Shown piece by piece: positions 19,206 to 32,910 of a stretch of DNA of 64,000 nucleotides. Below the pieces are notes generated by a model. That model was not told the DNA's origin. It worked only from the letters and a program-made list of their open reading frames with translations, and made no database searches. Made by a program: the position numbers and the translations under genes. The DNA comes from Rhodothermales bacterium (GTDB lineage: Bacteria; Bacteroidota; Rhodothermia; Rhodothermales; JANQRZ01), in contig JBDUXZ010000005.1 of NCBI GenBank assembly GCA_039944855.1, positions 248,001-312,000 on the forward strand. The letters run 5' to 3'. Every line of letters begins with the position of its first letter. The stretch's first letter is position 1.

Positions 19206-21590
19206 ATGGCCTCCCCCACCGATCCGTTCCCCTTCGCGACCTCGCTGAGCCTCCAGCGCCTCGCCGATTTCTGGGAAGACGCCGGGGCCGACGGGCAAAC
19301 ATGGAGCCCCTTCGCCCGCGTCGTCGCCGAGCGGCTCGCTGCCACGCCCGCCGCCCTCGCCGCCGACCTCGACCCCGCGTTCCTCCGCGACCACGGCTCC
19401 CTCGCCGACCTCCTCCTCAGCGCCGTCTTCCCCCGCGCCCACTGGGACGAGACCGTCGCTGCCGTCATGCCCGTCTTCGGCACCGACGTGCTCTACGCCA
19501 CGCCGACGTGCGAGCGGCTCGGGCTCTTCGACGCCGAGCTCCACCGCCGGATGAGCCTCGACCGGGGCGGCTTCGAGTTCGGCCGGACGATGATGGCGTA
19601 CTACCTCCTCCTCGAGCACTGCTACGGCATCCGCGTCCCGTACGACGTGCCGCTCATCGTCACGCTCGACGACGCGGAGACGGGGCTGGAGCGCTATTTC
19701 AAGCTCGACGTCGACACGCGCTTTGCGTGGGTAGACACCGACGGCCCGTGCCCGGCGCTCAGCGAGACCGACCTCGCCCGCCTCGTCGCCGCGCCGGTCG
19801 ACCGCGCGCTGTGGCAGCGGCTCCTCCCGCCCGAGCGGTTCACGCTCCGCGGCTTCGGCATCGTCAGCGCCCTCGACGTGACCGATCAGCAGGTGCTCTC
19901 GGCGCTGAAGGACGACCTCTTGCAGAAGGGGGCGATGACGTCGGAGGCGAGCGTGGCGCTCCTCGAGCCCCGCCTCCGCTCGCTCCTCGGCTGCCCGAGC
20001 GCGCGGTTCGGGCTGATCTGCCTCGAAGAGGGCGAGCTGAGCGACGACGACGCGCGCGACCCCGCCGTGCGCCGCGTCCGCGCCGTCGGCCGGAGCCTGC
20101 TGCTCTCGTCGGGCGAGGTCCCGTTCTGCCCGAACAAAGGCCACTCGGTGTACGCCCGCGCGATCGAGCAGCGTTACCCCGTCGTCGTCCCCGACCTCAC
20201 GGTGCACGAGCCGCAGACGGGCTACGAGGCGCACCTGCTGGCCGAGGGCTTCCAGAGCGTGATGGTGGCCCCGCTGCGCGCCGGGTCGCGGACGGTCGGG
20301 CTGCTGGAGCTGGCCTCGCCCGAGGTCGGAGCGATCAACGCATTCAACACGATGAAGGTGGATGAGGTGGCGGGCCTCTTCGCCACGGCGATGCGCCGGA
20401 GCCTCGACGAGCGGCGCGACCACGTGCAGGCCGTCATCAAATCCCAGTGCACGGCCATCCACCCCGTCGTCGAGTGGCGCTTCCGCGAGGCGGCGATCCG
20501 CTACCTCGACGCCGAGGGCGGCGCGGCGCGCGTGATGGAGCCCATCGTGTTCCCCGGCGTCGTCCCGCTCTACGGGCTCTCCGACATCCGCCGCTCCTCG
20601 TCGCACCGGAACGAGGCGATCGCCGAGGACCTCACCGAGCAGCTCAGCCTCGCCTTCTCCGTCGTCGTCGAGGCGGCGTCGTACCGCCCGCTGCCGGGGC
20701 TCGACGAGATCGGTTTCCGCCTCCAGCGCCTCATCGAAGAGATCGAAGAGGGGCTGAGCACCGAGCACGAGGTGGGCGTGCTGGAGTTTCTGCGACGCGA
20801 CGTCGAGGGGCTCTTCGACCACCTCGCCCGCTACGGGCCGCGCGTCGGCGAGCGTGTGGCGACGTACCGCGCCGCGCTCGACCCCGCCCTCGGGATGCGG
20901 TACGGCGCCCGACAGCGTTACGAAGCGTCGGTGACGAAGATCAACGAGACGATCTCGTGCCACCTCGAACGGCAGGAGGCGTACGCGCAGGCCCTCGTCC
21001 CCCACTACTTCGAGAAGTACAAGACCGACGGCGTCGAGTACACGATCTACGTCGGCGACGCCATCCTCGAAACGGGCGAGGCGGACCCGCTCGCCCTCCG
21101 CAACCTCCGCCTCTGGCAGCTCATGACGACGTGCAGTACGGCGTGGGCGCTCGACCGCATCGCACCGGACCTCCCGATGCCGCTTGAAACGGCCCACCTC
21201 CTCCTCGTCCAGAGCACGCCCCTCGCCATCCGCTTCCGCTACGACGAGAAGCAGTTCGACGTGGACGGCGCGTACAACACGCGCTACGAGATCGTCAAAA
21301 AGCGGATCGACAAGGCGACCGTCGCCGGAACCAAGGAGCGGCTCACGCAGCCGGGCCGCCTCGCGATCGTGCTCTCCCACCAACGCGACCTCGCCGAGTA
21401 CCGCACCTACCTCGACTACCTCCGCGCGGCGGGCTACGTCGGCGGCCCCGTCGAGGAACTCGGGCTGGAGCCGATGCCGGGCGTGCAGGGCCTCCACGCG
21501 CTCCGCGTCCCGATCGCGTCACAGCCGCGGGGGATGGAGTTGGACGTGACGCCCGAGCACGCGCGCCGCGCCGCGATGGAAACGGCGTAG
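19206..21590 (+). CDS. Large GAF-domain protein of unknown function
   Basis: A 794-residue cytoplasmic protein. Residues of about 255-400 read as a GAF domain: an ...RFGLICLEEGEL opening, VYARAIEQRYPVVVPDL, GFQSVMVAPLRAGSRTVGLLEL and a closing helix. The flanking regions are long, with conserved-looking aromatic segments (VPYDVPLIVTLDD; HPVVEWRFREAAIRYL; HYFEKYKTDGVEYTIYVG) but no catalytic motif I can name. No transmitter, cyclase or HTH domain follows the GAF, unlike typical sensors. Similar long GAF proteins occur in Bacteroidota genomes and are uncharacterised. It is monocistronic and ends at a 17-base perfect hairpin. Confidence 0.8.
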   Translation: MASPTDPFPFATSLSLQRLADFWEDAGADGQTWSPFARVVAERLAATPAALAADLDPAFLRDHGSLADLLLSAVFPRAHWDETVAAVMPVFGTDVLYATPTCERLGLFDAELHRRMSLDRGGFEFGRTMMAYYLLLEHCYGIRVPYDVPLIVTLDDAETGLERYFKLDVDTRFAWVDTDGPCPALSETDLARLVAAPVDRALWQRLLPPERFTLRGFGIVSALDVTDQQVLSALKDDLLQKGAMTSEASVALLEPRLRSLLGCPSARFGLICLEEGELSDDDARDPAVRRVRAVGRSLLLSSGEVPFCPNKGHSVYARAIEQRYPVVVPDLTVHEPQTGYEAHLLAEGFQSVMVAPLRAGSRTVGLLELASPEVGAINAFNTMKVDEVAGLFATAMRRSLDERRDHVQAVIKSQCTAIHPVVEWRFREAAIRYLDAEGGAARVMEPIVFPGVVPLYGLSDIRRSSSHRNEAIAEDLTEQLSLAFSVVVEAASYRPLPGLDEIGFRLQRLIEEIEEGLSTEHEVGVLEFLRRDVEGLFDHLARYGPRVGERVATYRAALDPALGMRYGARQRYEASVTKINETISCHLERQEAYAQALVPHYFEKYKTDGVEYTIYVGDAILETGEADPLALRNLRLWQLMTTCSTAWALDRIAPDLPMPLETAHLLLVQSTPLAIRFRYDEKQFDVDGAYNTRYEIVKKRIDKATVAGTKERLTQPGRLAIVLSHQRDLAEYRTYLDYLRAAGYVGGPVEELGLEPMPGVQGLHALRVPIASQPRGMELDVTPEHARRAAMETA

Positions 21591-21649: not shown

Positions 21650-22147
21650 TCACACGTCGCCGAGCGCTTTCGGGGGGACGAGGAAGACGAGTTCGCCGCG
21701 CCCGAACGCCACGTCGCGCCACCGCGATACGCCGACTTCGACGCACGCCAGCGCCGCCGTCGGGAAGCGCACGGCCCCACCACCGATGAGCCGGCCGACG
21801 GTCTCACCCCACCCCGGCTGGTGCCCGACGAGGAGGAGCACGTCTGCCGCCTCATCCGCCGCGTGGATCTCGCCGAGGAGGTCGCCCGGCCCCGCGCCGT
21901 AGAGGTCGCGCGTCGCCCGCACCGGGGCCGTGAACCCGCCGGCCTCGCGTGCGAGGTCGAGCGTCGCGAGGGCCCGCACGGCCGTCGAGGTCACGATTTG
22001 GTCGGGAATCACGCCGCTCGCGGCGAGGAAGCGACCCATCGTTTTGGCCGCCTGCCGGCCACGTTTGTTGAGGGGCCGGTCGTGGTCGTGGCTGTAGTCG
22101 GCGTCCCAATCGGACTTGCCGTGGCGGAGGAGGAGGATCGTTTTCAT
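21650..22147 (-). CDS. SixA-like histidine phosphatase
   Basis: A 165-residue member of the histidine phosphatase (phosphoglycerate-mutase-like) superfamily. The catalytic signature LLRHGKSDW contains His9 within RHG, and the second catalytic His lies in LLVGHQPGWG. NKRGRQAAKTMG matches the SixA subgroup, whose founding member dephosphorylates phosphohistidine on ArcB or Npr. The start is set at ATG 22147 (MKTILLLRHGK); the longer open frame to 22237 lies in repeat-bearing intergenic DNA. Confidence 0.85.
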   Translation of the reverse strand: MKTILLLRHGKSDWDADYSHDHDRPLNKRGRQAAKTMGRFLAASGVIPDQIVTSTAVRALATLDLAREAGGFTAPVRATRDLYGAGPGDLLGEIHAADEAADVLLLVGHQPGWGETVGRLIGGGAVRFPTAALACVEVGVSRWRDVAFGRGELVFLVPPKALGDV

Positions 22148-22307: not shown

Positions 22308-23363
22308 TCATCGTGCTCCCGGATTCGGTTTGGCCGGTCGGTGGAAGCGGTAGCTGCGGAACGTCGTCACGAACTCCTGCACGAGCACCTTCAGCACGGC
22401 GGCGGCGGGGACGGCGAGGAGCAGCCCGAGCAGGCCGAACGCATCGCCCGCCGCCAGGAGGACGAGGAGGATCACGAGCGGGTGCAACTCTACGTTCCGC
22501 GACAACAGGAGCGGCTGCGAGCCGAAATTGTCGATGAGTTGGATCACGAAAAAGGCGACGACGATGGGGAGCACCTGATCGAGCCCGCCCGTCGTCACGG
22601 CCGAGACCGCGACGGCGATGACGCCGCCGATGAAGGGGCCGAGGAATGGGATGAGGTTCGCCACGCCTGCCGCCGCGCCGACGAGGAAGTAGTACTCGAC
22701 GCCGATGAGCCACAGCGCGAACGTGGCGAGGAGGCCGACGATAAACGCGGCGAGGAGTTGGCCGCGGAGGTAGCCGCCGAGTTGGGCGTCGGCTTTGCGC
22801 AGCGCGTTGAGGGTGAACTCGAAGTAGCGGTTCGGGACCGCGCCGATGAACGCCCGCCGGAAGCGGCGCCCGTCTTTGAGCAGGAAGAACGCGATCACGG
22901 GGACGATCACGAACTGCGTCGCAAGGCCGAGCACGCCCGGCACGAACCCCACGACGTCGTCCAGGTGCTCGGTCGTGAACACCGCCACGCGCTCTCGCAG
23001 GTCGGGCCGGGGGACGCCGAGCGGGGCGAGCCGGTCGCCGAGCCACCGCTCGATGTCGCCGAGCACCTCGGACGCGACTTCGAGGTCGATCCCCTCTTGC
23101 AGCCCAGCGACCTGCGCCGCCAGCGACGGGAACAGGAGCGCGAGCGGCACGCCGATTAGCACGAGCAGCCCGCCGAAGACGGTGACCGACGCCCAGAGCC
23201 GGCTCATCCCGCGCGCTTCGAGCCGTACGGCGAGCGGGTCGAGGAGGTACGCCAGCAGCCCGCCGAGCACCACGAGCTGCACGACGCCGCGGACTGGCCA
23301 CAGCAACGCAACGGCAGCCACCGCCGCCGCGGCCAGCAAGAGAGCCTTACCCCATCGCGGCAT
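22308..23363 (-). CDS. AI-2E family transporter
   Basis: A 351-residue integral membrane protein of the AI-2E/UPF0118 family. Hydrophobic helices are at about residues 7-45 and 58-85; after a soluble loop (90-145) come five or more helices, at 148-330. The family signature near the middle is seen in GVANLIPFLGPFIGGV and PLLLSRNVELHP. Members export or exchange small solutes (autoinducer-2, or Na+/H+), and the substrate here is unknown. It is the last gene of a six-gene minus-strand operon and overlaps the upstream cNMP-binding gene by 17 bases. Confidence 0.88.
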   Translation of the reverse strand: MPRWGKALLLAAAAVAAVALLWPVRGVVQLVVLGGLLAYLLDPLAVRLEARGMSRLWASVTVFGGLLVLIGVPLALLFPSLAAQVAGLQEGIDLEVASEVLGDIERWLGDRLAPLGVPRPDLRERVAVFTTEHLDDVVGFVPGVLGLATQFVIVPVIAFFLLKDGRRFRRAFIGAVPNRYFEFTLNALRKADAQLGGYLRGQLLAAFIVGLLATFALWLIGVEYYFLVGAAAGVANLIPFLGPFIGGVIAVAVSAVTTGGLDQVLPIVVAFFVIQLIDNFGSQPLLLSRNVELHPLVILLVLLAAGDAFGLLGLLLAVPAAAVLKVLVQEFVTTFRSYRFHRPAKPNPGAR

Positions 23364-23883
23364 CGTCGTCCGGTTCGGTGCCCGCTTCCAACGTAGCGAG
23401 ACGCTCGTGCAGACGCTGGAGCTCGCCGTCGGCGTGGACGAGGCGGGTGCCGAGGTTCTGCGCGAGCGGCAGCAGCAGCTTCACGCCCACGCGCGGCGAG
23501 CGCTCCAGCAGGTCGAAGAGTTCGGGCTGGAAGAGGCCGTGGAGCACGGTCGGCGCCGTGGCCGTCGCCCGCGCCGAGCGCGGTGTCTCGTTGAGGAGGG
23601 CGATCTCGCCGAAGAAGTCGCCGCCGCGGAGCTCGGCCAGCAGGCGCTCCGTCGGCTCGTAGACGATCGCGACGGAGCCGCTCTCGACGACGTACATCCC
23701 CACGCCGGGGTCGCCCTGCCGGAAGATCACCTCGCCGGTGCGGTACTCCCTCCGGTAGAGGATCTTCTCCAACTCGGCGAGCTCGCGCCGGTCGAGGTCG
23801 GTGAACATCGGCACCCGCCGGAGCAGCGCCTCGGTACCCGCGACAGGCCGCACGCGGAAGACGTTGCCCCAGAGGCTATCCAT
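23347..23883 (-). CDS. Cyclic-nucleotide-binding (cNMP/CRP-like) domain protein
   Basis: A 178-residue protein made almost entirely of one cNMP-binding domain (about residues 22-135), with no HTH, so it is not a CRP transcription factor. The phosphate-binding cassette is intact: GDFFGEIALLNETPRSARAT, with Glu93 and Arg102 in the positions that contact the ribose 2'-OH and the cyclic phosphate. A short coiled coil (150-168) and acidic tail follow. Overlaps with both neighbours show operon membership. The operon also encodes a nucleotide cyclase, so it is a natural receptor for that second messenger (inference). Confidence 0.9.
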   Translation of the reverse strand: MDSLWGNVFRVRPVAGTEALLRRVPMFTDLDRRELAELEKILYRREYRTGEVIFRQGDPGVGMYVVESGSVAIVYEPTERLLAELRGGDFFGEIALLNETPRSARATATAPTVLHGLFQPELFDLLERSPRVGVKLLLPLAQNLGTRLVHADGELQRLHERLATLEAGTEPDDDAAMG

Positions 23884-24892
23884 CGCGGCGCTCCTCCCCG
23901 CTGCGGCTCTCTTCCGAGCGCGCGCGCGGGATCGTGAGGATGAACGTCGTCCCCTGCCCCTCGCGCGACTCGACCTCCATCGCCCCGCCGTGCGCCTTCG
24001 TGATGATCTCGTAGGAGAGCGAGAGGCCGAGGCCGGTCCCCGTGCCCGGCGGCTTCGTCGTAAAGAACGGCTCGAAGACCTGGGCGCGGACCTCGGCCGG
24101 AATCCCCGTCCCGTTGTCCTCCACGCGGATGACCACCTCGCCGTCCCGCGCCACCGTCCGCAGCGCGACCACGGGGTCGAACGCCTCGTCGGCGTCGGCC
24201 TTTTCGGTGACGGCGTAGAACGCGTTGTTGAACAGGTTGATGCACACGCGGCCGAGGTCCTGCGGCACGACCTCCACCTCGCCCACGGTCGGGTCGAGGT
24301 CGTACTCGATCGTCACGTTGAAGTGGGGGTCGGCGGCGCGCATGCCGTGGTAGGCGAGGTTCGCGTAGTCGGCGACGAGCTTGTTGAGGTCGGTGGGCTG
24401 GCGCTGGCTGGCGTTCGTGCGCGCGTGCATCAGCATGTTGCGGACGGTCGTGTCGGCGCGCTCACCGTGCTCGGAGATCTTCTGGGCGTTGTGGGCGAGG
24501 TCGTCGAGGAGGTCGTTCACCTCGTCCAGCACCTCAGAGACGGGAGCGTCGCGGTGCTCTTCGAGCGTCTCCTTCAACTCGCCCGCGAGGTCGACGGAGA
24601 GGCGCGCGAAGTTGTTGACGAAGTTGAGCGGGTTCTTGATCTCGTGCGCGATGCCGCCGGTGAGCTGCCCGAGCGAGGCGAGCTGCCGGGCGCGGACGAG
24701 CTGGTCCTGCTTGATCCGCAAGTCCTCGCGCGCGGATTCGAGCGCGGCGTCGCGCTCGCGCAGCGCCTCCGCATGGGCCTCGGCCTCGGCCCGCAGTTCG
24801 GCGTTCGCCTTCGCCAGCCGCCGGCTCGACCACCAGAGGTAGCCGGCGAGCCCGAGCACGGCGATGCGGAAAACGAGGAGGAGCGGGTCCAT
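23876..24892 (-). CDS. Membrane-anchored sensor histidine kinase
   Basis: A 338-residue kinase with one N-terminal hydrophobic helix (residues 4-22) and almost no periplasmic part. A long coiled coil (24-70) leads to the HisKA-like box [17 protein letters not shown] with His83, then a four-helix region with [11 protein letters not shown]. The HATPase domain has [19 protein letters not shown] and GTGLGLSL. It is of the type with a cytoplasmic coiled-coil input. It sits directly downstream of the receiver-cyclase gene (95-base gap) and overlaps the cNMP protein by 8 bases, so it is the obvious kinase for that receiver. Confidence 0.9.
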
Positions 24893-24987
24893 GAGCGCGA
24901 TGAGAAGAGCGGGGAGCGAGCGGCGGCGGCCCGAGATCGCTACGGCCTAAACGTACGGCGCCGCGCGTTGCGACGGGGCACCCGACA

Positions 24988-26487
24988 CTACGATGCCTCG
25001 CGCCGCGCGCACGAGCGCAGCACGTCGGCGACGTCGTCCGCCATCGCCGTGAAGTGAACGGCGTAGCCGTCGTCGGAGGCTTCGAGCACCTTCGCGTAGG
25101 CGTGCCCCTGCGCCGACGCATCGGGCAGCGGGACGTGGAGCTTGAGGTCGGCGAAGGGGTCGAGCGGGCGGTCGGTACGGAGGAGGCCGCCCGCCTCGGA
25201 GAGCGCGACGAAGTCGGCGTCGACGGCGTCGTCACCGAGCCGCTTCCCGTCGAGCACGTAGAAGCGGACGGGGAGCGGGCGGGCGAGCGGCTGCAGCGCG
25301 TGGTTCTGCTCCGGCAGGGCGAGCCCGACCGGCCCGCCGATGCCCTCGATCTCGAAGAGCGGGATCGGATCGGCGAAGCCCTTCGCCCCGAGGTGGAGAG
25401 CGCGGCGGACCTTCACGTCCGGCCCGGCCTCGGAGAGCGTCGACTCCGAGACGAGGATCTGCCCGCCGACCGTGGCCGACTCGATCCGCCCCGTCTCGTT
25501 CACCGGGCTCCCGACGACGCCGTACTTCATCCGCTTCTCGGACCCGATGTTGCCCACGACGACGTCGCCCGTATTAATGCCGATCCCCATCTGCAGGCGC
25601 GGCAGCCCCATCGCGGCGGCGCGCTCGTTCACTTCGTCCATCGCGAGCTGCATCGCAATCGCGCAGGCGACGGCGCGGCGGGCGTGGTCCTCCCGCGCGA
25701 CGGGCGCGCCGAAGAGCACGAGGATCCCATCGCCGATGTACTCGTCGATCGTGCCGCCGTACTCGGCGATGACGCCGGCCATGACGCCGAGGTGGATGTT
25801 GAGCACGTCCACGACGCGTTCGGGCGCGAGCCGCTCGCTGAGGGCGGAGAACCCGCGGAGATCGGACATGAGGATCGTCACGCGCCGGCGCTCGCCGCCG
25901 AGCTCCGTCGCCTCCGGCCCGGCGAGGAGCGTCTCGGCCACCTCGTCGGAGAGGTAGCGGCCGACGGTCTCGCGCGCGTGCGCCGCCTGCTTCCGTTCGC
26001 CGACGCGCTCGAGGGCTTTGTCGAGCGTGACTTCGAGGTCGTCGAGGTCGATGGGCTTCGTGAGGAAGTCGAACGCGCCCCGGTTCATCGCCGTGCGGAT
26101 GTTCATCATGTCGCCGTAGGCGGTGACGACGACGGCACCGGGCTGGCCCTCGCCCCCGCCGAGCCGCGTCAGCTCGGCGAGGAGGGTGAGCCCGTCCATC
26201 CGCGGCATGTTGATGTCGGTCAGCACGAGATCCACGTCGGGGTGCGACCGGAGTTGGTCGAGCGCCTCGTGCCCGTCGCCCGCGAAGAGGAAGTCGAGCT
26301 CACCCTTGCGGATGCGGCGGCGGAACTTCTGGCGGATCAGCGCGGCGAGGTCCGGCTCGTCGTCGACGACGAGGACGAGGGCCTCGGGCCGCGCCGTCTT
26401 CTCGGCGTGGGCCGCTTCCTCGGCGGGTGCCGCCTGCTGGTCGTCGGCCGGTGGCGCGGCGGTGTCGGGGGTCGTCTCTTCGCTCAT
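24988..26487 (-). CDS. Response regulator fused to class III nucleotide cyclase and a PilZ-like C-terminus
   Basis: A 499-residue protein. After a low-complexity acidic/Ala-rich leader (1-35) comes a receiver domain (36-155) with Asp42/Asp43, phospho-acceptor Asp91 in [11 protein letters not shown] and Lys144. A linker helix leads to a class III cyclase catalytic domain (about 200-380). The metal-binding Asp209 (MSDLRGFS) and Asp253 ([10 protein letters not shown]) are present, as are the Asn/Arg pair in VNETGRIES, so it should be active. The usual base-selecting Thr/Asp position before GSPVN is Gly, so ATP versus GTP (or another base) is open. Residues 395-495 resemble a PilZ-like beta domain. 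The start ATG overlaps the upstream MBL gene stop (ATGA); the longer frame is rejected. Confidence 0.9.
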
Positions 26488-27368
26488 GCGCTCTCGGCTT
26501 TCGTGGCAATCAGGGCGGGGGGCGGCAGGACGACGTCGCCGTTGCCGAAATCGAACGTCAGCCCCTCGAACGCCACCGTGCACCCGATGTCGTGCGGCGC
26601 GAGCCGCTCGTTCGCGTCGGCCTGGATGGCGTCGAGTTCGTCGTCGGTCCGGTCGGGGTCGTGGTGGAACAGGACGGCGTTCCGAACCCCCGCCTCAATC
26701 GCCAGTTCCGCCGCCTGCGCGACGCTGCTGTGGCCCCACCCGCGCCGCGCCGCGATCTCGGTGTCGAGGTACTGCGCATCGTGGCAGAGCACGTCGGCGT
26801 CCCGGCAGAACGCGACGATGGCGTCGTGGTCGACCTCGCGGGCGGGCGGGTCGAGTTCGTTGTCCGGGATGAACACGAAGGACCGGCCCTCGTGCGTGAC
26901 GCGGTAGCCGAACGCGCCGCCGGGGTGGTTCAGCGCCTGCCGCGCGAGGTCGATCCCATGCTCGGCGAGGAACGCGACGGGGTCGCCGCCGACGCGCCGG
27001 ACGGCACACGGGAGGTCGCCGGGGTGGAGCGGGTAATGGACGCCGTCGAAGAGGGAGAGCGGCGACCACGAGCCCTCGTCCTCGTCCCGGTGGTCGAGGA
27101 GGTGGACGAGCCGGCCGTCCTCGTAGAGCGGGGCGAAGAACGGGAAGCCGATGACGTGGTCGGCGTGGAGGTGCGTGAGGAGGACGAAGAGCTCCTCGCT
27201 CCGCCCGACGAGCGCGCGGCCGAGCGGTCGGATCCCGGTCCCCGCGTCGAGCACGAGGACGCGGTCCCCGACCACGACCGAGACGCACGTCGTGTGGCCG
27301 CCGTAGCGCGCGAACGGCGCGCCCGGTGCCGGCGTCGAGCCTCGGACTCCCCACAGGGTGACGCGCAT
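26484..27368 (-). CDS. MBL-fold metallo-hydrolase, possible cyclic phosphodiesterase
   Basis: A 294-residue metallo-beta-lactamase-fold hydrolase. The start [16 protein letters not shown] and GGHTTCVSV with [10 protein letters not shown] are typical of the PhnP/RNase Z-like and class II phosphodiesterase-like branch. The metal site THLHADH (His66, His68, Asp70, His71) is intact. Further ligands are in IPDNEL, CHDAQY, GHSSV and FHHDPDR. Enzymes of this branch cut phosphodiester bonds, including cyclic ones. In an operon with a nucleotide cyclase and a cNMP receptor, a role in degrading the messenger is plausible but unproven. It overlaps both neighbours by 1-4 bases. Confidence 0.88.
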
Positions 27369-28189
27369 CAGGGCTGGGGGATGAGGTTCGGGAACGTCGG
27401 AGCCGTCTCCACGACCGGGACTGGCTCCGACCCGATCACGTCGGTCGCGATGAGGTAGTACGTCCCGATGAAGAGGAGCACGCCCGTCACGATCGCGATC
27501 ATGAACACGGTGTACGAGGTCCGGAGCAATTTGAACTTCAACGTCAGCACGCTGCCGAGCCCGTAGAGGTCGCGGATCATGTTTCGGTAGAGCCGGTCGT
27601 TGTCAAGCATCAGCTCCGTCATCCCCTCCTCGAACTCGTCGCGCCGCATGTTGGCAAAGTGGCCGAAGAAGAGGATGTTCGCGGTGTTGGCCCGCACCTG
27701 ATCGAGCGTGATCGGGTCCTCGTTGACGCGGGGCCGCGCCGATCGGATGGCGAACACCATCGAGATCAGGCACCCGATCATCAGCACCGACGTCGGGATG
27801 AGCAGCCACGGGTTCGAGTCGATCTTCGGCGAGATCGCCCCGAGGAGGATCGGGAGGATGAGGCCGTTGATCGAGATCATGATGTTGGCCTTCGTGTCGG
27901 CCAGCGACGAGAGGTCCATGTGGACGCGGTACGACGTGCGGAACATGGTCTCGACGCCGCGGCTCGACCCGAGCGACGTGTCCTTTTTCTTCTTCTCCTT
28001 CTTCTTCCGCTTCTTCTCGGCCTTCCGCTCGGCGCGGGCCTCCTCCACCGCCACGGCCGCCGCCTCGGCGACGGCCTCGACGTCGGCGGATTCGAGGACT
28101 TCGGGCTCGGGCATGTCGGGCTCGGGGCCGGCGCTGCCGTCGGACTCGGCCGGCTGCGCCTCGGGAGAGACGGGTTCGTCAGACTGCAT
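27368..28189 (-). CDS. Pycsar-type transmembrane effector homologue (DUF5706)
   Basis: A 273-residue protein. Residues 1-75 are disordered: acidic/Ala-rich, then a dense Lys/Arg block (56-69). The rest matches the Pycsar effector TM family: VHMDLSSLADTKANIMISIN (90-108) leading into helix 1, helix 2 at 128-147, then NILFFGHF, EEFEEGM-like acidic helix and IRDLYGLGSVL, and helix 3 at 226-248. In Pycsar systems such proteins disrupt the inner membrane when a cyclase makes cCMP or cUMP. The cyclase here is a receiver-linked class III enzyme, not the usual stand-alone PycC. It is the first gene of the operon 28189-22308. Confidence 0.85.
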   Translation of the reverse strand: MQSDEPVSPEAQPAESDGSAGPEPDMPEPEVLESADVEAVAEAAAVAVEEARAERKAEKKRKKKEKKKKDTSLGSSRGVETMFRTSYRVHMDLSSLADTKANIMISINGLILPILLGAISPKIDSNPWLLIPTSVLMIGCLISMVFAIRSARPRVNEDPITLDQVRANTANILFFGHFANMRRDEFEEGMTELMLDNDRLYRNMIRDLYGLGSVLTLKFKLLRTSYTVFMIAIVTGVLLFIGTYYLIATDVIGSEPVPVVETAPTFPNLIPQP

Positions 28190-28243: not shown

Positions 28244-31200
28244 CTAGTACAAAAATCCGAGGCCGATGTTCACGAGGGCCCCCTCCGGCGACACGCCGAC
28301 GGTCCCGCGCAGCAGGGCGAGGTCGAAGAGGTTGACCCACAGCCCGCCGCCGTAGCCCTGGTGCCACGTCGAGGAGCCCTCGCCGTCGGCCCAGACCCGG
28401 CCGTTGTCGACGAAGCCGAGCACGCCGAGCGTACCGCCCGCCGCGTACGTCCGGAAGTCGAGCAGCGCGATGCGGAGTTCGGCGTTCTGGTAGAACGCGG
28501 AGCGGCCCGCGAACCGCGTCGACCGATAGCCGCGCAGGTTCTCGACGCCGCCGAGCGTGGCGGCGCGGTAGAACGGGAAGTCCCCCGCCACGTGCTCGGC
28601 CCCGACGCGAAGCGCGAGCGTGACCTGGGGGCTCAGGCTCGGCGAGAGGTAGACGGCGAGCGCCGACGAGAGCGGCGCGAACGTATCCCCCGCGTTCGCT
28701 ACGCCGGTGCGGATGCCCGCCCGGTTCTCCCACCGGAAGCCCCGCTGCGGGTTCACCAGCCGATCCTCGTAGTGAAGCACGGCGAAGGCATCGCCCCCGA
28801 CGAACGCTTGGCCGTCGAACACCTCGGCGTCGGCCGGGAGGTCGCCGAGGATGCGGCCCTCGGTCTGCTCGACGAACGTGACCTCGGCCGCCGGCCCGAG
28901 CCCGAACGCGGCCCCCTCACGGAACGTGAGGCCAAGCGCGAAGGCGGCGGCGGCGCTCGCCTGCCGCACGCGGTAGAACTCCTCGTCGAGGTCATCGGTC
29001 GTCTCGTTCCCGAGCCCGTAGAAGTTGTACACGTCCTGCGGCGTCGCGCCCTCGACCTCGGTAAAGACGTCGAACCGACCGACCCCTTCGACCCAGTGAC
29101 TCCGGTAGGCGGCGCTGACAGCGCCCGTCCCCGTCGCCACGGTCGCCGTAATCTGGTGCTGGATGCCGTAGGGCTCGCGCCGGAACTTCGGCCGCGTCCA
29201 GATCACACTTGCTCCCACCGCCACCCCTTCCGTGGCGCTGTAGCCGACGACGGGGAGGTACGAGCGCTCCGGGTAGGAGAATTCCTGGGGGTCGTACCGG
29301 TTGACGGCGGGGTCGTCGGAGAGCGTGACGCGGGCACGACCGGCCCCGATCTCGTTCCCGCGCTCGGTGTCGTAGACGTGGAGCCGTCCGCTCGCCCCGC
29401 CCTCGGCGTCGACCTCGTCCTCGTCCGTCCCGCCGACGACGCGGACGTACGGACCGCCACCGTCGCCCCGGATCTCGAAGCGGTCGCGCCCGCCGAGCCC
29501 GTAGAGCCGGATCTCGTCGGTCTCGCCGTCGAAGAACGTGCGGCGGTAGAGCTGACGGCGGTCCTCCCCTTTCTTGCTCGTCTTGGAGACCGTCACCGTC
29601 GTCGCCTCCCCCTCGCGCTCGACGACGAACCGCTCGTGCTTGTCCGACCCGACGATGTCGACGGTGCCCGCGAGCAGCTCGTAAAACTCGTCGGCGACCT
29701 CGGGGAGCCGGTCGCGGCGGCTCTGGAGCGTGCGCAAGACGCGCTCGCCGTGGAGCGCATCGACTTCGTCGGGCCAGGCGTCGAGCGCGTCGCGGAGCAC
29801 GTCGTCCGTCATCCGAGCCTGGAGGTCGCGGGCAATCGCTTGCCAGTCGTCGCGCGTCAGTTCGTTGAGGAAGCGGCGGTCCTGGAACAGCCCGTTGTCG
29901 GTGAGCCCGATGAGATCGCCGTACTCGGGGTCGAAGTCTTGGAGGCCGCGGACGGCCTTCTGCGCGATGCTCGGCAGGAGCCCGGTGAGGCGGAAGAACA
30001 CCTGGTCGCGGTCGCGCGGGATCGGACGGTACACCTTGCCTTCGGTGCGGGCGTCGCCTTCGAGCGTGGCGTCGAGCATGAACGGCTCGAACTGCGCCCA
30101 CCGCCACTGGTCCTCGTGCCGGTCCCAGTCGCCGATGAGGAGGTCGAAGAGCCGGTTCCGCAGGAAGAACGGCTGGTCGACGCGGGTGTCGTTGTCCTCG
30201 CGCAGCTCCCGAAACAGCGTCGCCGACCCGTCGATGTCCTCGGCATTCCCGAACTTATCGAGCCCGGCCGCTTCGTCCGTGGGCCGCTCCTCGAAGAGGA
30301 CGAGCGTGTTTGCGAACGTCTCGCGGTAGACGCCGAGGCGGGGGTCGTCGGGGACGACGACGATCTGCGGGTTCGTGTGGTAGATGCCGGCGGCGTCGGC
30401 GAGGCGCGGGACGACGAGGGCGCCGTACGGGTTCGAGCTCGAGATCTGGTCGGAGAGGACATCGGCCGCGAATGTGTTGCGGAGCGCGGGCGGGAGCAGG
30501 AGGTCGGGCCGCTTCTGAACCTGCCGGAGCACAAACTCGCGCCCCTCCGGGTTGGCGAGCCGGAGCGAGACGGTCTGGTAGCCACCGCCGCGCTTGAGCG
30601 GGGTCAGCCCGCCGTACGCCCTCCCGAGATCGAGCACGGGCACAGCGACGGGCGCCGTCCAGACATCGCGGTAGTTGTCGCCGAAGAAGAACCGCTTGAC
30701 CGGCCCCGCGCCGAGCGTCGGATCGGCCACGGCAACGCGCGTGCTGTCGGTGTAGTCGGGCAGCGCGGCGGGGTCGATGTCGGGCACCTCGGGGTCGACG
30801 GCTTCACCACGGGGCTCTTCGAGTTTCGTGCGGAAAGCGAGCGATCCGCCGGGCGTGCCGTCGGGCTCCCAGAACTCCAGCCACATCGTGTCGTCCTCGT
30901 AGAACTGGAGCGAGGCGAAGCCCGCCGTCCCCTGCGTGAACCCGGCGCCCGAGCCCCCGGCGAGGGGCCCGCCCCGCGCCCCTCCGCCGCTCACGACGTG
31001 ATGCTGCAACTCCAGGGCGTCGGTGCGGAAGGGGATGTACTGGAGGCCGTACTCGTGCGACGCGGCATAGACCACGCCGTCGTGCTCGCTGAGCACCTCG
31101 GGGAGCGCGTCCCGCAGCTCGCGGTAGTCCTCATTCGAGAAGTCCTGCCGCCCGCCGAAATAGCTCCGAAACAGCGGGTACGCCGAGCCGATGATGGGAA

Positions 31201-31987
31201 GCGGAACGTAGAGCGGACGCCACAGGTCGGTCAGCGGGAACAGGTGCTGACGGAGGGCGAACTGACCTGCACGCGCCCCCGTCGAGAACACGGGGTGGTG
31301 CCCGGCGACGACGATCCGCTCGTCGTCGTACTCCTCGATGATCTCGTTGAGCCGGACGACCACGTCCACCTCCGATTCGATCTCGTCCCCATCAATCTCG
31401 CCCGTCGGCCGGTCGTCGGGGTCGCGGAGCCACCACTCGGTGTCGAGGGCGACGAGGATGAGGTCGTCCGTCAGCTCGATGACGCTCGGCCCGGCGAGGC
31501 CGCCTTCGGGCCGGAGCACGTCGCGGCCGAGGCGGTCGGCGAGCCCGTCGGCCTGCCGTTCGAGGGCGTCGCCGTCGCCCCGGTCCCGGTCGCCGGGGAG
31601 CACGACGACGCGGCCGGGGTAGCCCTCGACGAGCGCGGCGACGCGGTCCAGCGAGGCGTCGCCCGCTGCCCGGTTCGCCGCGAGGGAATCGGGCAGCGGG
31701 CGGAGGAGTTGGTCGCCGAGGAGCACGACGGCACTCTGCTCGCCCGCCTCGGCGAGTTGGGCGCGGAGGGCGTCGAGCGCGGGCGTCTCCTCCCCCGCCT
31801 CCGCCGCGACGTTCCCGACGAGGAAGAGGCGGTACGCGAGGTCGGTGCGCGGCGGGGGCTGCACGCCGTCCCACGACGCGAGCGGGTCGCTGACGTAGGT
31901 CCCGGACGAGGCGCACGCGCCGAGCGTGAAGGCGAGCGCGAGCAGGACGAAGAGGGGTCGCACGGGCGAGGAATACGGAGGTGTCAT
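28244..31987 (-). CDS. Lipoprotein fusion of a degenerate metallophosphoesterase domain and an Omp85-type barrel
   Basis: A 1247-residue protein with a lipoprotein signal (lipobox LGAC, Cys25). Residues of about 55-360 follow a calcineurin-like phosphoesterase, seen in VLLGDQLL, LPGDRDRGD and AGHHPVFSTG. Several metal ligands are altered, though: the first GD is GN (LVGNVA), GNHD is GDRD, and GHDH is SHEY. A long central region follows with RPIPRDRDQVFFR and SKKGEDRRQLYRR. The last 350 residues form a BamA/TamA-like (Omp85, bacterial surface antigen) barrel with ATLGGVENLRGYRSTRFAG and a C-terminal aromatic (GLGFLY). It is outer-membrane located. The start overlaps the previous gene stop (ATGA). 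Confidence 0.85.
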   Translation of the reverse strand: MTPPYSSPVRPLFVLLALAFTLGACASSGTYVSDPLASWDGVQPPPRTDLAYRLFLVGNVAAEAGEETPALDALRAQLAEAGEQSAVVLLGDQLLRPLPDSLAANRAAGDASLDRVAALVEGYPGRVVVLPGDRDRGDGDALERQADGLADRLGRDVLRPEGGLAGPSVIELTDDLILVALDTEWWLRDPDDRPTGEIDGDEIESEVDVVVRLNEIIEEYDDERIVVAGHHPVFSTGARAGQFALRQHLFPLTDLWRPLYVPLPIIGSAYPLFRSYFGGRQDFSNEDYRELRDALPEVLSEHDGVVYAASHEYGLQYIPFRTDALELQHHVVSGGGARGGPLAGGSGAGFTQGTAGFASLQFYEDDTMWLEFWEPDGTPGGSLAFRTKLEEPRGEAVDPEVPDIDPAALPDYTDSTRVAVADPTLGAGPVKRFFFGDNYRDVWTAPVAVPVLDLGRAYGGLTPLKRGGGYQTVSLRLANPEGREFVLRQVQKRPDLLLPPALRNTFAADVLSDQISSSNPYGALVVPRLADAAGIYHTNPQIVVVPDDPRLGVYRETFANTLVLFEERPTDEAAGLDKFGNAEDIDGSATLFRELREDNDTRVDQPFFLRNRLFDLLIGDWDRHEDQWRWAQFEPFMLDATLEGDARTEGKVYRPIPRDRDQVFFRLTGLLPSIAQKAVRGLQDFDPEYGDLIGLTDNGLFQDRRFLNELTRDDWQAIARDLQARMTDDVLRDALDAWPDEVDALHGERVLRTLQSRRDRLPEVADEFYELLAGTVDIVGSDKHERFVVEREGEATTVTVSKTSKKGEDRRQLYRRTFFDGETDEIRLYGLGGRDRFEIRGDGGGPYVRVVGGTDEDEVDAEGGASGRLHVYDTERGNEIGAGRARVTLSDDPAVNRYDPQEFSYPERSYLPVVGYSATEGVAVGASVIWTRPKFRREPYGIQHQITATVATGTGAVSAAYRSHWVEGVGRFDVFTEVEGATPQDVYNFYGLGNETTDDLDEEFYRVRQASAAAAFALGLTFREGAAFGLGPAAEVTFVEQTEGRILGDLPADAEVFDGQAFVGGDAFAVLHYEDRLVNPQRGFRWENRAGIRTGVANAGDTFAPLSSALAVYLSPSLSPQVTLALRVGAEHVAGDFPFYRAATLGGVENLRGYRSTRFAGRSAFYQNAELRIALLDFRTYAAGGTLGVLGFVDNGRVWADGEGSSTWHQGYGGGLWVNLFDLALLRGTVGVSPEGALVNIGLGFLY

Positions 31988-32910
31988 CGAGCGGGTTGGT
32001 AGTCGTAACGGAGGAGGCGGGCCGCGTCGCCGTCGGCTTCGCTGGCGAGGAAGAGCGTGCCGTCGGGGAAGAAGGCGATGGCTTCGGGCTGCGGCAGGAG
32101 TCGCTCGGGGAGCGGCCACACCGCCGTGACGCTGCCCGCGCGGTCGAGCACGGCGAGCGCTTTCCGCACGGACGAGAGGACGTAGACCTCGCCGGTCACC
32201 GGGTGCACCCCGAGCGCCGACGGCTTGAAGGTGTTGATGTCGACGAGCGGCCGGACGAGCGCGCGCACGGTTTCGTCGACGGCCCGTTCGCCGTCACTCG
32301 CGGCGAGCGATTCGGCAGCGATCACGAACGCCGGCTCCGGGTCGAGCGTGTTCGTGGCGAGATCGAAGGCGTAGACGGCGCGTACCCCGCGGAGTCCGCG
32401 ACCGGGCGACTCCTTGCACGCGATGAGGAGGCGGGCCGCGTCGGCGTCGTAGCCTAACCCCTCCGCGTCGCACGAGCCGTGGAGGCCGGGGTCGAGCGTC
32501 GGCGCTCTGGCTTTCTCGGCCTGCCAATCCTCGATCACCGCGAGTTCGCCGTCGCTGCGGAGCACGACGACGCGCTCGCCCACCCGCTCGACGCCCTCGT
32601 AGTCGCCGTCTTTCCCGAAGTCGTGCTCGTGCGTTACCTCGCCCGTCGCCGCGTCAATCACGTAGAGCACGCCGTCCTCGTCCTGCACAGCGCCGAGGCG
32701 GTCGCCGTCGAGCGCGGTCAGGCCGGAGATCTCGTCGAGCCGGCCGGGCAGTTCGAACTGCGCCGTCGGCGCGTCGAAGCGGTACGGCGGAGCGGCTCCG
32801 TCGGCCCGCGCGGGGGATGCCGTGGAGGCGGACGCGCCGGGGGGCTCCCCGTTGCCGCAGCCGCTCGTCACGAGCGCGATCAGCAGAAGTCCTGCGAGGG
32901 GACGCAGCAC
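31984..32910 (-). CDS. SdiA-regulated / SMP-30-like beta-propeller lipoprotein
   Basis: A 308-residue lipoprotein (lipobox VTSGC, Cys18). The mature protein reads as a six-bladed beta-propeller of the SdiA-regulated family: ELPGRLDEISGLTAL, EDGVLYVIDAATGEV, DYEGVERVGERVVVL, DAEGLGYDADAARLL, FKPSALGVHPVTGEVYVLSS and PQPEAIAFFPDGTLFLASE. Such propellers often bind Ca2+ and act as esterases or carriers, but no active site can be assigned here. It is coupled to the downstream phosphoesterase/Omp85 fusion by an ATGA overlap. Confidence 0.85.
   Translation of the reverse strand: MLRPLAGLLLIALVTSGCGNGEPPGASASTASPARADGAAPPYRFDAPTAQFELPGRLDEISGLTALDGDRLGAVQDEDGVLYVIDAATGEVTHEHDFGKDGDYEGVERVGERVVVLRSDGELAVIEDWQAEKARAPTLDPGLHGSCDAEGLGYDADAARLLIACKESPGRGLRGVRAVYAFDLATNTLDPEPAFVIAAESLAASDGERAVDETVRALVRPLVDINTFKPSALGVHPVTGEVYVLSSVRKALAVLDRAGSVTAVWPLPERLLPQPEAIAFFPDGTLFLASEADGDAARLLRYDYQPAR

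Follow-up and report, generated by a model that had tools for sequence, protein, structure and literature searches.

Does a run of genes that encodes a histidine kinase, a nucleotidyl cyclase and a Pycsar-like membrane protein form a single signalling circuit and, if so, of which kind? The question is raised by a locus of a Rhodothermales bacterium, in a stretch of 64,000 nucleotides (contig JBDUXZ010000005.1) that we refer to as the window and whose coordinates are used throughout. The original prediction, made from the letters of the window, had described six genes as a complete kinase-controlled cyclic-nucleotide circuit with a Pycsar-type membrane effector. Our best reading is that a housekeeping cyclic-nucleotide membrane module was put under two-component cyclic GMP (cGMP) control by the window's own family (f1). 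We give an even chance to the corresponding mechanism, a kinase-controlled cGMP signalling operon in which a two-component guanylyl-cyclase cassette was added to an old housekeeping locus. The genes concerned are the following:

31984..32910, minus strand: SdiA-regulated-like lipoprotein (PF06977, Pfam 34.1 bits)
28244..31987, minus strand: metallophosphoesterase and Omp85-type outer-membrane protein (Omp85 27.5 bits; Metallophos 44.2 bits in a distant homologue)
27368..28189, minus strand: DUF5706/PycTM-family membrane protein (PF18967 104.8 bits, cut-off 27.2)
26484..27368, minus strand: MBL-fold hydrolase (Lactamase_B_2 55.6 bits)
24988..26487, minus strand: receiver, class III nucleotidyl cyclase and PilZ-like domain (Response_reg 82.5, Guanylate_cyc 87.0 bits)
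23876..24892, minus strand: histidine kinase (HATPase_c 87.0 bits; HisKA 26.4 against a cut-off of 26.9)
23347..23883, minus strand: stand-alone cyclic nucleoside monophosphate-binding protein, CNB (PF00027, cNMP_binding, 74.5 bits)
22308..23363, minus strand: AI-2E/PerM-family membrane protein (PF01594, AI-2E_transport, 198 bits)
21650..22147, minus strand: SixA-like histidine phosphatase (His_Phos_1 48.6 bits)
19206..21590, plus strand: convergent GAF-domain protein from the ancestral neighbourhood (GAF matches)

The six genes of the original prediction, from DUF5706 to AI-2E, were found where it had placed them, with strong Pfam matches to the domains it named, the DUF5706/Pycsar-TM-like protein included, and alignments bore out the intact active-site and binding motifs of all parts. 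The proposed operon limits (22308-28189) were too narrow, since the SdiA-like and Omp85 genes upstream and the SixA-like gene downstream continue the minus-strand run. The SdiA-like and metallophosphoesterase/Omp85 genes overlap by ATGA, and the latter ends 54 nt before the DUF5706 gene. The DUF5706 and MBL genes overlap by 1 nt (TGATG) and the MBL and cyclase genes by 4 nt (ATGA), the cyclase start having been corrected to the ATG at 26487. A gap of 95 nt follows between cyclase and kinase, then overlaps of 8 nt (kinase/CNB) and 17 nt (CNB/AI-2E), and the SixA-like gene lies 160 nt beyond the AI-2E gene.

In the proposed mechanism, the old locus would have supplied the SdiA-like, metallophosphoesterase/Omp85, DUF5706, MBL, SixA and GAF genes, and the added cassette the receiver-cyclase, kinase, CNB and AI-2E permease. 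The kinase would phosphorylate the receiver, which in its phosphorylated form would set cyclase activity via a conserved transducer element (GRYLSDE), and the cyclase would make cGMP. CNB would read cGMP and probably act on the co-encoded AI-2E-type permease. The DUF5706 protein would provide a second, membrane-level output, possibly by reading the cyclase product, and the MBL enzyme would lower the signal. For the first of these steps the basis is intact motifs; the outputs we infer.

By sequence signature, the cyclase is predicted to produce cGMP, not cyclic CMP or cyclic UMP, because it is close to Cya2 of Synechocystis and carries the same base-selecting pair. Cya2 structures (2W01, 6FHT) were the top PDB matches both by sequence and by model, with 58-59% identity to 2W01 over the catalytic domain and a model superposition of ~1 Å. 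An E-G pair selects the base in Cya2, a guanylyl cyclase (PMC4215837); one substitution, E488K, turns it into an adenylyl cyclase, i.e. one that uses ATP (PMC5995499). The pair of the window cyclase, E249-G323, and its assisting lysine, K321, match Cya2; the glutamate is kept in 17 of 18 Rhodothermales orthologues and the glycine in 15. The metal-binding (D209/D253) and transition-state (N330/R334) residues, likewise shared with Cya2 together with the transducer element, are invariant across 21 sequences. In the alignment, the window cyclase differs from the residues reported for PycC pyrimidine cyclases (Y50/D94/R97 or F100/R142/Q144; PMC11224242), and its E249-G323 pair is a guanylyl-cyclase-type signature.

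The two proteins differ in their flanking domains. Cya2 has a CHASE2 input, whereas the window cyclase has a receiver, which aligns as intact (D91, T122, K144 and an acidic pair), its acidic residues and lysine being invariant among aligned orthologues. Unlike Cya2, the window protein also ends in a third, PilZ-like domain of ~100 residues (24991-25245), modelled as a beta-barrel plus helix. Its Pfam PilZ score is 22.0 bits against a cut-off of 22.5, and 5 of 17 orthologues match. The PilZ ligand motif, RxxxR...(D/N)xSxxG, reads ALSEAG in the window, with the D/N missing. The presence of such a domain after a predicted guanylyl cyclase hints at cyclic di-GMP crosstalk or a lost ligand site.

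The kinase comprises one predicted N-terminal transmembrane helix, a coiled coil and HisKA/HATPase regions with the H-box HEIKNPLNF; no recognisable sensor domain was found by Pfam or transmembrane prediction. Kinases beside the cyclase in other families carry Reg_prop/Y_Y_Y propeller or TPR regions. The coupling of kinase, receiver and cyclase put forward in the original prediction is supported by the intact motifs and by the conservation of the module. Receiver-cyclase pairs with a kinase occur in other families as a separate module, and a kinase-REC-REC-cyclase module is common in Bacteroidota, with the kinase within 1.5 kb in 21 of 25 loci examined.

The phosphate-binding cassette of CNB, FGEIALLNETPRSA, is intact, and its E and R were present in 15/15 aligned orthologues; a preference for cAMP or cGMP is not deducible from this cassette. 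The CNB-AI2E pair is conserved on its own (L230-L234; families f4, f41 and f44), and in family f45 both genes lie near cyclase-kinase genes (L054, L058, L059, L063-L066).

The zinc site of the MBL protein, HxHxDH, is intact (THLHADH), further His/Asp zinc ligands are conserved in the alignment, and the protein is a candidate cyclic-nucleotide phosphodiesterase, that is, a signal eraser. It shares the MBL fold, the HxHxDH motif and an RNase Z-like superfamily with the class II MBL phosphodiesterases Apyc1 and YhfI. A PDB sequence search returned weak RNase Z matches only, with no significant match to Apyc1/YhfI. Identity with the MBL protein that stands beside CNB-AI2E elsewhere was rejected, since in genome G233 the two are present as distinct paralogues.

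The DUF5706 protein is predicted to have three transmembrane helices (~101-119, 130-148 and 229-247), with a cytosolic stretch between the second and third; its structure model has a predicted local distance difference test score (pLDDT) of 85.7, and a PDB sequence search found no relevant match. In 198 genomes surveyed from the phylum, the matches to PF18967 formed two groups, one strong and typically present once per genome, the other weak, sporadic and mostly of 163-210 aa. In a FastTree phylogeny, 89 strong sequences, including that of the window, formed a core clade (support 0.989) in which sequences group by taxon. All 17 sporadic effectors analysed (16 from the phylum and one from a Priestia plasmid locus) fell outside it. 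According to profile searches, a class III cyclase adjoins 12 of these 17, and the cyclase-adjoining effectors look like real Pycsar-type loci. Judging by this tree, the core clade is old, vertically inherited and separate from Pycsar-type effectors. Our plasmid search yielded two records, one with a Pycsar-like locus. The Priestia locus (L133, plasmid NZ_CP128553.1) is of the Pycsar type; an MBL-fold gene lies a short way upstream of it, in the opposite orientation.

Because HD, MBL and TPR-cyclase partners recur beside it, the core clade is, by gene association, tied to cyclic-nucleotide enzymes without being Pycsar. An HD domain is fused or adjacent to the core-clade protein in 41 of 42 other-phylum loci and is fused to DUF5706 in 69/80 GTDB loci. 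The HD-DUF5706 fusions of Bacteroidia have the core clade and the SdiA-like/Omp85/GAF neighbourhood in common with the window, but carry an N-terminal HD domain in place of a separate MBL protein and, as a rule, lack a nearby cyclase. In two genomes, a membrane-anchored class III cyclase with a base-selecting Gln is convergent with an HD-DUF5706 gene (L078:7764-8885 and L097:9302-10504).

We then consider how the gene order arose. Orthologues of the DUF5706 gene, sought in 114 genomes of the order, occurred in 37, and strong cyclase orthologues (E < 1e-120) in 19. Among sampled genomes, the two genes are neighbours only in f1 (G000, G226, G227). The six-gene order was present in all three sampled f1 genomes and nowhere else sampled, and is retained at 62-81% protein identity. 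In G226, it is split between cyclase and kinase at contig ends (L033, L229), and ~3.5 kb of extra sequence separates AI-2E from SixA. An ancient six-gene operon is ruled out by this survey.

The older arrangement, seen at ~100 loci, consists of the SdiA-like, metallophosphoesterase/Omp85 and DUF5706 genes followed by MBL and/or SixA, with a convergent GAF gene. Within 6 kb of the DUF5706 gene, Rhodothermales loci have an Omp85 gene in 30/34 cases, an SdiA-like gene in 30/34 and a SixA gene in 22/34; the MBL gene is immediately downstream in 16/34, a GAF gene is near in 12/34 and a cyclase in 3/34. At 31 of 42 other loci an Omp85 gene is near, and at 20 a GAF gene. Elsewhere, three parts are found separately: DUF5706 with MBL, receiver-cyclase with kinase, and CNB with AI-2E. 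In f1, four genes (cyclase, kinase, CNB and AI-2E) separate MBL from SixA; by gene order, they look inserted into the old neighbourhood. The SdiA-like, metallophosphoesterase/Omp85 and DUF5706 genes occur together in the window (28244-32910) and at ~80 loci ranging from Rhodothermales to distant Bacteroidota.

The "complete circuit" of the original prediction is thus supported by the recurrence of the six-gene order in f1, but the assembly is lineage-specific, its parts lying apart elsewhere. The order was not found beyond f1 among the genomes sampled, which, at the level of gene order, is an outcome that the original prediction had itself listed as refuting.

A link between core-clade DUF5706 proteins and cyclases was also gained in Balneolaceae (f12). 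Among 20 core-clade loci of this family, 9 have a class III cyclase immediately before the DUF5706 gene, in the same orientation, and 2 have the two fused; further named fusions are SLJB01000032 and PWLN01000073. The fusions L131:8421-9566 (G042), L183:8351-9493 (G119), L285 and L297 are each one protein of ~380 aa. The first scores for both Guanylate_cyc and PycTM, and the base-selecting position is Gln in the first two. These operons and fusions share with the window a core-clade DUF5706 protein behind an Omp85 gene and a class III cyclase, but the cyclase belongs to a different, TPR-type lineage with a base-selecting Gln and comes without a kinase. At L174:6004-9331, a DUF5706 gene, a separate HD gene and a TPR-cyclase with a K-D pair form a possible writer/eraser/effector set.

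The original prediction had further set the locus apart from the usual two-gene Pycsar layout by its kinase and receiver. Such control is not absent from other layouts: in three of the 25 kinase-REC-REC-cyclase loci, from distant Bacteroidia (L242, L243 and L244), a DUF5706 effector directly follows the kinase-controlled receiver-cyclase. Unlike the window, these operons lack MBL, CNB and AI-2E; two of their effectors were included in the tree and fell in the sporadic, Pycsar-type group, and a K-T pair was seen in both cyclases that were inspected. On these assignments, kinase control of a DUF5706-adjoining cyclase has thus arisen more than once, in different clades and with different cyclases.

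These data suggest a broader proposal, which we hold tentatively and at somewhat short of even odds: that core-clade DUF5706 proteins are a phylum-wide, non-immune family of cyclic-mononucleotide membrane signalling in Bacteroidota, parallel to Pycsar, with writers and erasers that vary by lineage (HD, MBL, TPR-cyclase, two-component guanylyl cyclase), the window holding a complete kinase-to-membrane cGMP circuit.

Several observations weigh against the proposed cGMP operon. Sixteen other genomes of the order have both DUF5706 and cyclase orthologues, never adjacent; they are separated by, e.g., ~394 kb in G233 and 2.3 Mb in G235, and elsewhere lie on different contigs. Because these 16 genomes carry both apart, the two genes need not adjoin. 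The best match of the DUF5706 model to PDB folds had E = 0.077, with no recognisable ligand pocket. The Tyr that enhances guanylyl cyclase activity in Cya2 is G333 in the window cyclase and A/S/G/Q among orthologues. Finally, the MBL protein scores 51 bits against the cNMP-phosphodiesterase equivalog NF041851, whose cut-off is 400.

The main rival explanation is mere juxtaposition: a two-component cassette for cGMP would have landed between MBL and SixA by chance, and the halves would have no more in common than, perhaps, a transcript, the DUF5706 and MBL proteins being blind to cGMP. It would account for the fact that each half is complete by itself and is conserved elsewhere in the absence of its counterpart, for the union of the halves in one family only, and for the SixA gene, otherwise next to DUF5706 or MBL, now lying beyond the four added genes. 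Nevertheless, we consider it unlikely: the 4-nt overlap of MBL and cyclase suggests translational coupling, the order has been retained within f1 despite the protein divergence noted above, and the core DUF5706 clade gained a different cyclase independently in Balneolaceae, fusions included. The same Balneolaceae fusions and adjacencies speak against a second rival, to which we attach a distinctly low probability, that the DUF5706-MBL pair works independently of the window cyclase, on some other cyclic or phosphate-ester signal, for example one arising from envelope phosphate metabolism in which the metallophosphoesterase/Omp85 protein takes part, and that CNB acts on the permease only. Consistent with this rival are the conserved core (SdiA-like, metallophosphoesterase/Omp85, DUF5706, HD or MBL) without a cyclase in most genomes and the overlap and conservation of CNB-AI2E.

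Least probable by far, and without specific support, is a regulated Pycsar-type antiphage system in which the kinase would sense infection and the cyclase respond with a cyclic mononucleotide, leaving the DUF5706 protein to kill the cell: the PycTM family match, the match of PADLOC PycC models to the cyclase (94 bits) and the receiver-cyclase/DUF5706 pairs of Bacteroidia favour it, but PADLOC models match HD-DUF5706 proteins and unlinked cyclases equally well. As in Pycsar (PycC and PycTM), a class III cyclase is encoded with a PF18967 protein of equal helix plan. By contrast, the window has another DUF5706 clade, a guanylyl-type pair, kinase/receiver control, a separate CNB and an MBL protein, and its locus is chromosomal, vertically inherited and in housekeeping surroundings. 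The surrounding genes are ordinary (EF-G, TsaD-family, carboxyltransferase, FabH-type), and no defence gene was seen among the neighbouring genes looked at. Pycsar membership, and with it the Pycsar-type effector of the original prediction, was rejected on DUF5706 clade and cyclase signature. Its alternative wording, a "regulated or domesticated relative", comes close in its first term; the second would make Pycsar the ancestor, which nothing found here supports.

These findings bear on annotation. The majority of PF18967 proteins found here in Bacteroidota lie outside Pycsar loci, and for this reason "Pycsar effector" would be a misleading annotation. Should core-clade proteins turn out to respond to cyclic nucleotides, the clade would be a housekeeping counterpart of an immune effector, giving a direct route to the role of cGMP in these bacteria and to the relation between an immune effector and an ordinary signalling protein; the cyclase-DUF5706 fusions, being small and made of one protein, lend themselves to testing. 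The components themselves are of known kinds. We found no paper naming DUF5706 or PF18967, nor any description of the operon combination, the core-clade context or the fusions, in a literature search that mostly did not cover subscription journals, which makes the evidence for novelty weak. In the same genome as the window, contig C29 encodes a 1519-aa chain that combines an apparent beta-propeller sensor, a histidine kinase, a receiver and a class III cyclase (L237:8842-13398).

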